64,000 nucleotides of DNA from Whalleya microplaca (lineage: Eukaryota; Ascomycota; Sordariomycetes; Xylariales; Xylariaceae). The notes beneath the pieces were generated by a model. That model had not been told where the DNA came from, searched no databases, and saw only the letters and a program-made list of their open reading frames with translations. Every line of letters starts with the position of its first letter. Within the stretch, counting starts at the first letter, position 1. Positions 55,595-60,610 of the stretch are shown piece after piece. Where the stretch lies: contig MU385715.1 of the NCBI GenBank assembly GCA_022497155.1, forward strand, positions 620,001 to 684,000, read 5' to 3'. A program made the translations under genes and the position numbers.

Positions 55595-56302
55595 TTTGGC
55601 GTTGATGCGAAGGTGCAGTATTCTGTCTCACTAGCCGATGCAGCGAATGGCGAAAATAATTAAGTACGTTGTCCAGTGGAGTGCTGCTCTGAGGTCGAGA
55701 TGACGTTCAGAGAGTAATAATAGTAAACTGTGGAAGAGTCGCGTGCTGGCTGACTCTACGAAGCAGCCCACAGCGAAATCAATCATTGATCTCCCTATGA
55801 CCGGGGGGCTGTAAAACTGGAGCTTATCGGCTCCGATATTGCTGCCAAGCTCCGATGACAGGTTGAGGTACCAACTTTATTACCTAACTAACGTATCATG
55901 TATTCCCTGGCAGCCTGGGCTACCTAGGTACGTTTCGAGTCACATTAATAAATTCATTGGAGTAGTGTTATAATGAGACGAGGCTACATCTTTCTTTGTA
56001 TGACTTGACTCTTCTGGAAGTAGAAACTGCAGGACGAATCAATGGGAGAATATATCTACTATCTACCGTGAACTAGAAGCAGGCGATCATCCTAACTTAT
56101 ACCTACGCATGTGTAAGGTATACAAGTTATTCACCCCACTATCAGTCGACGTGCTGCCTATATAGCAACCCGTCGCTTTGATGCCTGTAAAATCAGGTAG
56201 GATATCGCTCCATTGTTGACCTGCTTGTAGTATCATGTGTAGGAACATTGGAGCCCTTCTTCATAACCCTAGGCAAGCTAGAGATAACAATGAAAGGTTT
56301 GC
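55595..56302. other. Spacer between CUE1 and U2 snRNA
   Basis: About 0.7 kb holds the CUE1 promoter and the 3' flank of the U2 gene, both on the minus strand. There is no open frame. No further small RNA was recognised. Confidence 0.45.
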
Positions 56303-56548
56303 GTCACCTGGAGGCAGTGTAATACCAGAGACACGATGGATGCTGCCATGGGCAAGCCCAGAGGGTCAGCTCCCAGAAGGCAAAAATAAGAATAATCACG
56401 ATTGAGCCACTATGTGACTCTTTCAGAGATTAAACTGAAAAGAACAGATACTACACTTGATCTAAGCCAAAACTATAGTGACTGTATTAGCAGATATCCT
56501 TCGTTGGTGGCGGTTTGGGTGGTGTTCACTTACGGCAAAGAGAGCTGA
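56303..56548 (-). ncRNA. U2 spliceosomal snRNA gene interrupted by a putative 61-bp intron
   Basis: Read on the minus strand, the body is unmistakably U2: TTTTGGCTTAGATCAAG, the branch-point-recognition GTAGTA (56449-56454), CTGTTCTTTTCAGTTTAATC with the matching CTGAAAG that closes stem-loop IIa, an Sm site TTATTTTTG (near 56381-56390), a stem III/IV region with GGGCTTGCCC, and the 3' CTGGTATTACACTGCCTCC near the end. The 5' arm of stem I (CTCTTTGCC) is not adjacent but lies 61 bp upstream (exon 1 about 56534-56548, exon 2 56303-56472). The intervening segment begins GTAAGTG, contains GCTAATAC and ends CACTATAG. Splicing would give a U2 of about 185 nt with the canonical stem-loop I. Both ends are approximate. 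This RNA pairs with intron branch sites in the nucleus. Confidence 0.88.
56473..56533 (-). other. Putative spliceosomal intron inside U2 snRNA
   Basis: The segment is 61 bp with donor GTAAGT, branch-like GCTAATAC about 13-18 bases from the 3' end, and acceptor TATAG. These resemble the mRNA introns of neighbouring genes in length and signals. Its removal joins GCC to TTTTGGC, restoring the stem-loop I hairpin. It falls at the boundary between the 5' arm and the loop. Confidence 0.8.
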
Positions 56549-56841
56549 AGAGGGAAAGGAAACGGACCAAAATGGAGTGGGGATGATTTTAGACATGGGC
56601 ACACAGAGGGCGGTCAGGAGGGCGGTCAGAATTCTGCCGGACCTTGCGGGTTGCTATAATGGTCCGTGCACACTCTCGGGATCCACACCACCACTACCTA
56701 ATCGTGCTAGGAGCCCTGCGACTCCTCCGATTGTTTTTGTTGACCTCGATCGCGTTGGCAACCATTTGAAAAGCAAATGCGGTAGCAGTAGATAGATAGC
56801 ACCACGAACAATTTCATGCGAACCCAGCTATATTCGCCAAC
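56549..56841. promoter_or_regulatory. Divergent promoter of U2 snRNA and SMC2
   Basis: About 290 bases separate the U2 5' end (reading left) and the SMC2 start codon (reading right). It contains a perfect 12-bp tandem duplication GAGGGCGGTCAG (56606-56629) about 60-80 bp upstream of U2. No convincing TATA box was seen. Confidence 0.5.
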
Positions 56842-59800
56842 ATGAGGGTTACGGAGGTGATTATAGATGTATGTATGCTGCAGAAAATATCTGATTTCCC
56901 TACTAATCAGCTCAAAGGGCTTTAAATCCTATGCCGTCCGGACGGTGATCTCAGGATGGTTAGTAAACAATGCCTATTTCTCGTGTCGCATAGCGGCAGC
57001 TAATGTCGCCCAGGGACGAGAGTTTCAACTCGATCACCGGCTTGAACGGTAGTGGGAAATCCAACATCCTGGATGCCATTTGCTTCGTCCTCGGTATTAC
57101 CAACATGTCAACAGTCCGAGCCCAGAATTTACAGGTATGGACAGGCAGATGACGTCGAACTTTTGTGCCGCTGAGCCTGACAGCTGTAATCTATAGGACC
57201 TCATCTACAAGCGTGGCCAAGCAGGCGTTACGAAAGCGAGTGTCACCATTGTATTCGATAATAGGGACAAAAACAAGTCGCCGATTGGTTTCGAAGAGTA
57301 TGCGACAATCAGCGTGACAAGACAGATCGTCCTAGGGGGCACTTCAAAGTATCTCATCAACGGACACCGAGCGCAGCAACAGACGGTCCAGAACCTCTTC
57401 CAATCGGTCCAACTCAATATAAATAACCCCAATTTCTTAATCATGCAAGGTCGCATCACGAAGGTGCTGAACATGAAGGCAGCCGAGATCCTAGCCATGA
57501 TCGAGGAAGCAGCTGGCACAAGGATGTTCGAGGACCGAAGAGACAAGGCTTTGAAAACCATGGCGAAGAAGGAGATGAAACTCCAAGAGATTACCGAACT
57601 CTTGCGCGACGAAATCGAACCTAAGCTCGAGAAATTACGAACAGAGAAGCGGGCCTTCTTGGACTTTCAACAAACCCAGAACGACCTGGAGCGCCTGACG
57701 AGAGTGGTTGTGGCACACGACTACGTACGGTATCAGGAGAGATTAGAGCAATCCGCTTCAGACCTAGAGAACAAGAAACAACGCCAAAAGGACCTTGAGG
57801 AATCTGCTGCAAGACTTAAAAGTGAAATATCTCACCTCGAGGAAGACGTAAAGAGGGTAAGGGCAGAGAGGGATAAGGAGCTTAGGAAGGGTGGAAAAGC
57901 TCAGGCGCTTGAGGATGATGTCAAGAAACATTCCAATGAACTGGTCCGACTCGCTACTGTTATGGACTTGAAAAAGTCTAGCAAGGCTGAAGAGGAAGAG
58001 CGAAAGACGGCAGTACAAAAGAACGTTGCTGAACTAGAGGCAACGCTAAAGGAGAAGACGAAGGCCTACGAGAAGATTAAGGCCAAGTACGATTCCGCTA
58101 AAGAGGAGAACGAGAAGCAAAGCCAAGACGCAGAATCAAAGGAGGAATTGCTCCAAACACTGCAAACTGGTGTTGCATCCAAGGAAGGTCAAGAAAGCGG
58201 TTACCAAGGTCAATTGCAAGATGCTCGGAATCGCGTAGCTGCTGCTGCCACTGAACAGGAGCAAGTGAAGATCAAGATTGCACATCTTGAAAAGCGCATT
58301 AAGGAAGAGGAGCCTCGCGCGAAAAAGGCCAAGGAACAGAATGCGGGTCTATTAAAGGATCTGGAAGGGCTCAAGGCCCAGTCGCAGAAGCTTGAGGCTC
58401 AACTTGGGAAGCTTGGTTTTGAGCCAGGACAGGAAGAGGAGATGTACAAGCAGGAGTCTTCATTGCAACAAACCATCAGAGGCTTGCGGCAGGAGGCAGA
58501 TGCGCTCAAGCGCAAAGTTGCCAACATCGACTTCAACTATGCCGACCCTACTCCCAACTTTGACCGTTCAAAAGTCAAGGGGCTCGTTGCTCAGCTATTC
58601 ACTCTCGACAAGGATCATACGAAAGCTGGGACTGCCCTAGAGATCTGCGCTGGTGGCCGTCTCTACAACGTAGTTGTGGATAGCGAAGTCACCGGCACAC
58701 AGCTGCTGCAAGGCGGAAAACTACGAAAGAGAGTCACCATTATCCCGCTGAACAAGATTGCAACATTTAAAGCATCGGCGCAAACTATTGCCACAGCGCA
58801 GAAGATCGCACCCGGTAAGGTAGACCTGGCCCTGTCGCTCGTTGGTTACGACAACGAGATCTCTGCAGCCATGGAATTCGTCTTCGGGAATACCCTGATT
58901 TGCCAAGATGCGGAGACGGCGAAGAGAGTAACCTTCGACCCGAACGTGCGGATGAGAAGCATCACACTAGAAGGAGATGCGTATGACCCCTCTGGTACGC
59001 TTTCAGGTGGCAGTGCGCCTAATTCTAGCGGCGTTCTCGTTACACTTCAAAAACTGAACGATATCAACCGCCAGCTGAGAGAAGCTGAAAGTTCTTTACA
59101 TGATCTCCGGGCCCGAATCTCGCGAGAAAAGTCTAAACTCGACCAGGCTCGCAAGATCAAACAAGACCTCGATTTGAAAACGCATGAAATCAAGCTTGCG
59201 GAAGAACAGATCAGTGGCAATTCGTCCTCTTCAATTATTCAGGAGGTTGAAAATATGAAGGAGACGATCGCACAGCTCAAGACTGACAGCGCGGAAGCCA
59301 AGAAGAGACAAGCTGAATCGAGTGCAGATGTCAAGAGAATCGAGAAGGACATGAAGGACTTCGAGAACAACAAAGACTCGAAGCTTGTGGAACTTCAGAC
59401 TTCTCTTGATAAGCTGCGAGCAACATTGGCTAAGAACTCGACCGCTGTTAAGTCTCTGCAGAAGGAACTTCAAACTGCTCAGCTAGATTCAGAACAGGTA
59501 TCGGGCGACCTCGCTGCCGCAAGGGAACAGCTTCATGAAGTCGAGTTGGCTATCAAGTCACAACAACAGGAAATCGAGGACCTGATCAAAAAGCAGTCAG
59601 ATTTACAAGAGACCCATGATCTCGCCCAGGCAGAGCTCGACGGCGAACGAGCTAAACTTACTGGTTTTGACGATGAGTTACGTGCTCTCGAAGAAGCAAC
59701 ACGAGCCAAGAATACTCGGATTACAGAAGAGAGTCTTGAAAAGCAAAAACTTGGCCATCAAGTTGACAAGTTCCACAAGGAGCAACAAAATGCCGTACAA

Positions 59801-60610
59801 AGCGTCGCGACCATGGAGAGCCAGCACGAATGGATTGCTGACGAGAAGGACAACTTTGGCCGAACGGGGACTCCGTACGACTTCAAGGGGCAGAACATCG
59901 TCGAGTGCAAGGCAACCTTGAAGACGCTCACGGATCGCTTCCAGGGAATGAAGAAAAAGATCAACCCCAAGGTCATGAACATGATCGACAGCGTGGAGAA
60001 GAAGGAGGTCGGCCTCAAGCACATGATGAAGACGGTCATCCGCGACAAGCGGAAGATCGAGGAGACCATCATCAGCCTCGACGACTACAAGAAGAAGGCC
60101 CTCCTGCAGACCTGGCAGAAGGTCAACGGCGACTTCGGCCAGATCTTCTCCGAGCTGCTCCCCGGAGGCAGCTTCGCCAAGCTCGACCCGCCCGAGGGCA
60201 AAACCATCAACGAGGGTCTCGAAGTCAAGGTGTGCCTCGGCAAGGTGTGGAAGCAGAGCTTAACGGAGCTGAGCGGTGGTCAACGGTAAGCCCCCTTCTC
60301 CTCACCTTTCATCCCATCGTAGATAACTAACTGATGATCCCATAGATCGCTCGTGGCCCTCTCCCTCATCATGGCCCTCCTGCAGTTCAAGCCCGCGCCC
60401 ATGTACATCCTGGACGAGGTCGACGCGGCGCTGGACCTGTCGCACACGCAGAACATCGGCCGCCTGATCAAGACGCGCTTCAAGGGCTCCCAGTTCATCG
60501 TCGTGTCGCTCAAGGACGGCATGTTCCAGAACGCCAACCGCATCTTCCGCACGCGCTTCAGCGAGGGCACGAGTATGGTGCAGGCGCTCACGGCCGCGGA
60601 CTTCAAGTAG
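56842..60610 (+). CDS. SMC2: SMC2 condensin ATPase subunit
   Basis: Five exons (56842-56868, 56918-56958, 57014-57134, 57197-60285 and 60346-60610) give 1180 residues, the standard SMC2 length. The first two exons are only 27 and 41 nt and encode MRVTEVIID and [14 protein letters not shown], as in other SMC2 proteins. The Walker A motif GLNGSGKSN is at residues 32-40. Two long coiled coils (about 170-515 and 670-950) flank a hinge (about 519-665, [14 protein letters not shown] to GTLSGGS). The ABC signature LSGGQR (about 1088) is split by the last intron. Walker [13 protein letters not shown] follows near 1110. SMC2 pairs with SMC4 in condensin, which compacts mitotic chromosomes by ATP-driven loop extrusion. 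All catalytic motifs are present. It is divergent from the U2 gene. Confidence 0.96.

Follow-up and report, generated by a model that had tools for sequence, protein, structure and literature searches.

A very probable spliceosomal intron in stem-loop I of U2 snRNA genes of the ascomycete Whalleya microplaca

Main finding

A U2 snRNA gene of Whalleya microplaca, located in the window (i.e., the whole stretch of DNA that was analysed, 64,000 nucleotides), is split in the loop of stem-loop I by a 61-nt insert, which is very probably a real spliceosomal intron that can be removed in this U2 lineage. The anatomy of the locus, its paralogs, the retention of intron signals and the structural constraint on the U2 body can all be read from the sequences themselves. 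As part of the best explanation, we propose that three intron-bearing U2 paralogs of this genome share one intron by descent.

Anatomy of the interrupted U2 gene

Direct reading of the minus strand showed a U2 snRNA at 56546-56296 that is interrupted at 56533-56473 by an insert of 61 nt. Its exon 1 has 13 nt (AGCUCUCUUUGCC), assuming that the 5′ end aligns with the start of the intact copies, and the U2 sequence resumes at 56472 with TTTTGGCTTAGATC, so that the insertion point falls between GCC and UUUU. Exon 2 contains the 3′ arm of stem-loop I, the GUAGUA branch-site recognition sequence, an Sm-type site and stem-loops II to IV. The features of the locus are the following:

56534-56546, minus strand: exon 1 of U2 (AGCTCTCTTTGCC), which supplies the 5′ arm of stem-loop I, with its start aligned to the intact copies
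56534-56546, minus strand: exon 1 again, as the predicted U2 strand of U2/U6 helix II (pairing prediction)
56473-56533, minus strand: GT-AG spliceosome-type intron of 61 nt, GTAAGT ... GCTAAT ... TAG (sequence signals)
56484-56491, minus strand: GCTAATAC, which includes GCTAAT as the branch-site motif; the A predicted as branch point lies 14 nt from the 3′ end of the intron
56296-56472, minus strand: U2 exon 2, 3′ end approximate (Rfam match and copy alignment)
56255-56295, minus strand: 3′ element (TTTCRTTR, short hairpin, GARGA) common to other snRNA loci (motif comparison)
56585-56594, minus strand: GTCTAAAATC, in the region occupied by a TATA box at some other snRNA loci
56621-56638, minus strand: upstream element GGCAGAATTCTGACCGCC; segments of it are also found in front of other snRNA loci

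The Rfam U2 model (RF00004) matched the minus strand at 56293-56487 with 125.1 bits, exceeding the gathering score (cut-off of 46); stem-loop I appears poorly paired in this match because the model was forced onto the intron tail. Once the two flanks are joined, the first 70 nt are identical to those of an intact U2 copy of the genome (L001), and the first difference occurs at position 71. The claim of the original prediction that a 61-bp insert parts the 5′ arm from the rest of U2 is thus borne out, with exact junctions at 56534/56472.

U2 paralogs in the genome

The search for other U2 copies that the original prediction had proposed covered 48,144,339 bases in 114 contigs, with the U2 model scored on the best 46 of 1,236 candidates. 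It yielded at least seven loci above the Rfam cut-off (three with an intron, two intact, one divergent but uninterrupted, and one damaged), and the same insert was found in three of the seven, at the same base (GCC/UUUU). Note that this and all other snRNA locus counts given below are lower bounds, since the best candidates alone were scored and the assembly is perhaps incomplete. The U2 loci are the following:

L001, contig C14: uninterrupted U2, 160.9 bits
L002, contig C64: uninterrupted U2, 160.5 bits
L003, contig C5, minus strand: U2 with a 61-nt intron
L004, the window copy, contig C6, minus strand: U2 with a 61-nt intron
L005, contig C16: U2 with a 62-nt intron
L006, contig C82, minus strand: divergent, uninterrupted U2, like L001 at 153 of 186 aligned positions
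L007, contig C29, minus strand: damaged U2, 71.8 bits

Genome-wide, the joined U2 junction has exactly two exact matches, L001 and L002. The original prediction had considered that a second uninterrupted U2 gene, if expressed while the window locus is silent, would speak against it; such genes were found (L001 and L002 in full length, L006 in divergent form), which fulfils the first half of that test. In L006, stem-loop I is a GCC-UUC-GGC hairpin with a shorter loop and stem II is altered, and this copy is possibly a specialised U2 variant. The damage in L007 comprises a stem-loop I two bases short, a broken stem IV region, and the absence of both an Sm-type word and the 3′ element. A further locus (L072 on C1), which carries the joined junction at three mismatches, was set aside, as its downstream region is without U2 sequence. 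Viral contigs were also scanned three times as a source of U2 relatives, giving 0, 47 and 0 stretches; the 47 were read as chance matches to a 15-base word, because neither of two U2 words lies within 400 bases of the match start.

Intron signals and comparison with introns of the genome

The spliceosome-type intron claimed by the original prediction in stem-loop I is well supported by its donor, branch motif and acceptor, as well as by the copies. Indeed, a donor, a branch motif and an acceptor spaced over exactly 61 nt are expected 0.05 times per 64-kb strand (20 first-order Markov shuffles), a rough figure resting on a single chance match over the 20 shuffles together. In addition, exon 1 followed by GTAAGT has three matches in the 48 Mb genome, every one of them at a U2 locus, and the reversed control has none. 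The donor GTAAGT is common to the three U2 introns, the branch motifs of L003, L004 and L005 are GCTAAT, GCTAAT and GCTAAC, the predicted branch A lies 14, 14 and 15 nt from the 3′ end, and the acceptors are CAG, TAG and CAG, respectively. These signals persist in introns that have otherwise diverged (pairwise identities of 55/61 for L003-L004, 44/58 for L003-L005 and 43/58 for L004-L005): 13 of 15 signal columns are invariant among the three introns compared with 20 of 47 other columns (Fisher P 0.003), and the two signal columns that vary are T/C swaps permitted by RCTRAY and YAG. Both the donors and the branch motifs fit the fungal consensus (GTRWGT/RCTRAY) given in section 3.2 of PMC5832005.

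The insert was also said to resemble the introns of nearby protein genes, and the plus-strand SMC2 gene that adjoins U2 (main exon at 57314-60289) supports this resemblance. A protein-to-DNA fit placed three SMC2 introns of 49, 55 and 62 nt, with donors GTATGT, GTTAGT and GTATGG, and left a later one unplaced; ACTAAT or GCTAAT precedes the acceptor in two of the three, but since the fit itself called for a loosely defined branch motif close to the 3′ end, lengths and donors are better established than branch sites. Taken with their own signals, this comparison makes the U2 introns look like ordinary introns of the genome.

Structural constraint on the U2 body

Between the window copy and L001, 24 of 187 positions differ, and all lie downstream of nt 70; the window copy retains both GUAGUA and the Sm-type site. 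In its joined form, 41 of the 45 Rfam-derived pairs are formed, exactly as many as in L001: one C-A and one A-A mismatch occur in stems where L001 pairs, and two places unpaired in L001 are paired in the window copy. Among the six full-length U2 copies (L007 was left out), ten stem pairs are changed on both sides, a value reached in none of 500 shuffles and compared with at most 2 in slid controls; the covariation score is 0.222 versus 0.121 in shuffles, and further pair types number 21 versus 16.0 (reached by 2 of 500 shuffles). Since the copies are few and related, the shuffles overstate significance, and the slid controls, which keep this relatedness, agree with them; note that some stem I mispairs of L006 in the count stem from a shifted alignment of this copy. 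At the sequence level, these compensatory stem changes establish that the U2 bodies have been under structural constraint.

Transcription signals and activity of the window copy

Flanking signals were surveyed at 13 U1, U2 and U4 loci, U5 and U6 being left out. The 3′ element, a motif drawn by eye from the same loci and without shuffle control, is present at 12 of the 13 and missing at L007 alone; it is a possible 3′-end processing or termination signal of snRNAs in this fungal group. Within 200 nt upstream, GGCAGAAT occurs on either strand at seven of the 13 loci and ACCGCC at eight (both counted without shuffle control). TATA(A/T)A was found at seven of the 13, with its first occurrence starting at −54 to −61; L005 is among them, L011 and L014 have near-variants, and the window copy and L003 have none in this survey, which means that expression of these two may be weak. 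If any intron-bearing U2 copy is well expressed, L005 would be the likeliest one.

These data bear on a reading in which the window copy is silent or decaying, its insert is a relic and the other copies make all U2. Such a reading concerns the activity of the locus and is compatible with the insert being a real intron. It draws on the existence of intact L001 and L002, on the window locus having no clear TATA box, and on the 24 positions at which it is unlike L001. However, no change is seen in the first 70 nt, compensatory stem changes are among the differences, and the recognition sequence and the Sm-type site are kept, whereas decay in this genome looks like L007, with its low score and its missing 3′ element and Sm-type word. 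Moreover, L005 combines the intron with a TATA box and the 3′ element. We consider a silent window copy unlikely, and good expression of the window copy itself reasonably probable.

Alternative origins and fates of the insert

The insert might instead stay unspliced in a variant U2 and enlarge the loop of stem-loop I. It does sit in a loop, and the loops of many structured RNAs tolerate insertions. However, GT-AG, the branch motif and their spacing are kept in three diverged copies, a retained insert would separate the predicted helix II strand from the U2 helix I region (taking U2/U6 pairing as it is generally described), and the insert by itself shows no fold of note. For exon 1 folded together with the intron, z is +1.26 and 185 of 200 shuffles reach the same or greater stability, and no strong fold of the intron termini was seen in this folding test. 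Retention is thereby reduced to an extremely unlikely reading.

The same folding result, together with genome-wide DNA similarity, bears on a recent mobile-intron origin of the insert, as an introner or stwintron of the sort known to spread in Hypoxylaceae. Stwintrons do propagate in Hypoxylaceae and Xylariaceae according to the available text of PMC12403724, but the window intron matches itself and the C5 U2 intron alone, the C16 intron matches itself alone, and the termini lack a strong fold; no dispersed family of intron-like copies at many sites was found in this genome. A recent mobile intron is thus very unlikely, and an introner or stwintron-type element may lie at the old origin of the U2 intron. 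The reading that we retain is that of an ordinary spliceosomal intron, removable from the U2 transcript.

U6 and other structured RNA genes

The U6 model, scored on the best 47 of 2,566 candidates, gave one locus over the cut-off, which also carries a spliceosome-type intron:

L008:1444-1604 (G000:C4, about 1360459-1360619), plus strand: U6 with a 53-nt spliceosome-type intron

Its DNA reads GAAACGATAC / GTAAGT...ACTAAC...ACAG / AGAGAAGATTAGC, where the intron splits the ACAGAGA box as AC/AGAGA. The uninterrupted U6 junction word (GATACAGAGAAGATTAGC) was found nowhere in the assembly, and a genome search for U6 exon 2 gave a single match. The genome search also found at least four U1 loci (59.2, 56.7, 52.7 and 33.3 bits, all below the Rfam cut-off, and starting with AUACUUACCU or AAACUUACCU), at least two U4 loci and at least one U5 locus, and no insert was seen in these four U1, two U4 and one U5 loci. 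For U3, one locus was detected:

L069 (G000:C44), minus strand: U3 with a likely 65-nt intron near its 5′ end

The candidate signals of the latter are GTCAGT...GCTAAC...ACAG, and introns near the 5′ end of U3 are reported for the vast majority of Pezizomycotina surveyed (PMC5832005, in the available text); the U3 gene of this genome is probably intron-bearing. A 3′ element similar to that of the snRNA loci is visible after U3 in L069.

A U2 gene that would need U2

We propose that the intron-bearing U2 gene would be transcribed into a pre-U2, from which existing spliceosomes would cut out an ordinary 61-nt U2-type GT-AG intron, and that the ligated RNA would fold stem-loop I and become U2, with coexisting uninterrupted U2 genes able to supply U2 independently. 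From the features described above, we infer transcription of the gene and use of its product in spliceosomes, and splicing of the U2 intron is very likely. Exon 1 is predicted to pair with the 3′ end of the U6 of this genome over 11 base pairs with one bulge (−13.3 kcal/mol), a pairing which we take to be the helix II of the literature. The intron would then separate the helix II strand of U2 from its helix I strand, so that U2 still carrying it would not be expected to fit into the catalytic core and pre-U2 would have to be spliced by pre-existing U2. The self-reference that had been claimed (new U2 needs old U2) therefore holds for the window locus and not for the species, which has two intact full-length copies and the divergent L006. 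U2 alone is not strictly circular at the species level, because uninterrupted copies exist; the loop seems to be closed at U6, since the sole detected U6 gene is interrupted.

The occurrence of introns in snRNA genes has served as a circumstantial argument that introns can arise by reverse splicing. Among the five spliceosomal snRNAs, U2 and U6 alone are interrupted, which would suit reverse splicing into the catalytic core, although this is suggestive only: with two of five families interrupted, the chance of these being exactly U2 and U6 is 1 in 10. One may go further and imagine that excised introns were reverse-spliced into the core RNAs U2 and U6 (and not U1, U4 or U5) and copied into DNA, and that the sole U6 and part of U2 are now renewed by an autocatalytic loop in which working spliceosomes must be inherited; we put this forward tentatively, as a possible but doubtful scenario.

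The presence of interrupted and uninterrupted U2 paralogs together with an interrupted and apparently single U6 makes direct tests possible, in particular of which copies supply U2, of whether a U2 shortage lowers its own renewal, and of how the intron can persist while gene conversion makes the remainder of the gene uniform.

Gene conversion and history of the intron

L003 is a mosaic: its intron is 55/61 like the window intron, and its body is 185/187 like L001. At the 24 positions separating L001 from the window copy, it agrees with L001 at 23 and with the window copy at one. This pattern suggests gene conversion in the making of L003, of which it is a likely trace. Conversion could have run in either of two directions: in one, an intron-bearing gene received its exon 2 region from an uninterrupted gene; in the other, conversion with cDNA from a spliced L003-type U2 gave rise to copies like L001.

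Trees built for six copies (all but L007), from the U2 bodies and from the flanks, show no starred branch, so that they do not separate gain from loss of the intron. On each of them the intron label needs two changes, and the three intron copies fall on one side in 22% and 29% of bootstrap trees, respectively. The flank tree pairs L003 with the window copy (support 81/80). Plain flank identities do not clearly favour this pair, either upstream (70/96 for L003-window versus 68/88 for L003-L005) or downstream (54/76 for L003-window versus 51/71 for L003-L006), and the flanks are too diverged to help much.

Relation to known introns in structured RNA genes

Takahashi et al. are said to have described, in 1993, a U2 intron of about 60 nt in Rhodotorula hasegawae, an organism that reportedly also has U6 introns; this U2 intron reportedly lies just downstream of the branch-site recognition sequence. 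Both cases are mRNA-type introns in a U2 gene. In contrast to the reported site in this basidiomycete yeast, the intron described here interrupts stem-loop I and precedes the branch-site recognition sequence, its host is an ascomycete, and it occupies some of the U2 paralogs only. Fungal U6 introns are alike in being spliceosomal introns in a catalytic snRNA, as in the single detected U6 of this genome, but differ from the window gene in the RNA concerned, U6 being a Pol III gene. The U2 intron of R. hasegawae appears as a reference title in PMC2586383, which backs the mRNA-type U2 intron in Rhodotorula that the original prediction had mentioned, and fungal U6 introns (fission yeast; Canzler, Stadler and Hertel 2016) appear among the references of PMC5832005. 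A further likeness is found in the U3 snoRNA, whose fungal introns are, in the available text of PMC5832005, canonical, near the 5′ end and almost always in the first stem-loop, and where paralogs with and without the intron occur together in 8 of 147 genomes; U3, however, acts outside the spliceosome, hence without self-reference. The stwintrons of Hypoxylaceae and Xylariaceae (PMC12403724, as far as its available text goes) occur in what is probably the same fungal family, one with documented intron gain, but they are nested, sequence-similar and multicopy, whereas the U2 intron is single and not dispersed.

Among the matches listed in a search of the PMC literature (titles and abstract starts), no U2 intron was found in any ascomycete, nor the stem-loop I position, mixed U2 paralogs or the conversion pattern, and the available text of PMC4424553 contains nothing on introns in snRNA genes. 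Introns in U2 are already known, and the stem-loop I site, the ascomycete host, the mixed paralogs and the conversion pattern are apparently new with respect to the literature matches listed.

The neighbouring SMC2 gene

The SMC2 start codon lies at 56842, and U2 and SMC2 are divergent genes with about 300 bases between them. Among the best 120 protein matches, SMC2 identity is 94% with Hypoxylon sp. FL1857 and 93% with Hypoxylon sp. EC38 and H. trugodes. Judged by these identities, the host most likely belongs to the Hypoxylaceae (Xylariales). An AT skew of +0.219 was observed at 56001-60000, overlapping the plus-strand SMC2 coding region, and the coiled-coil codons of SMC2 are a likely cause of it.
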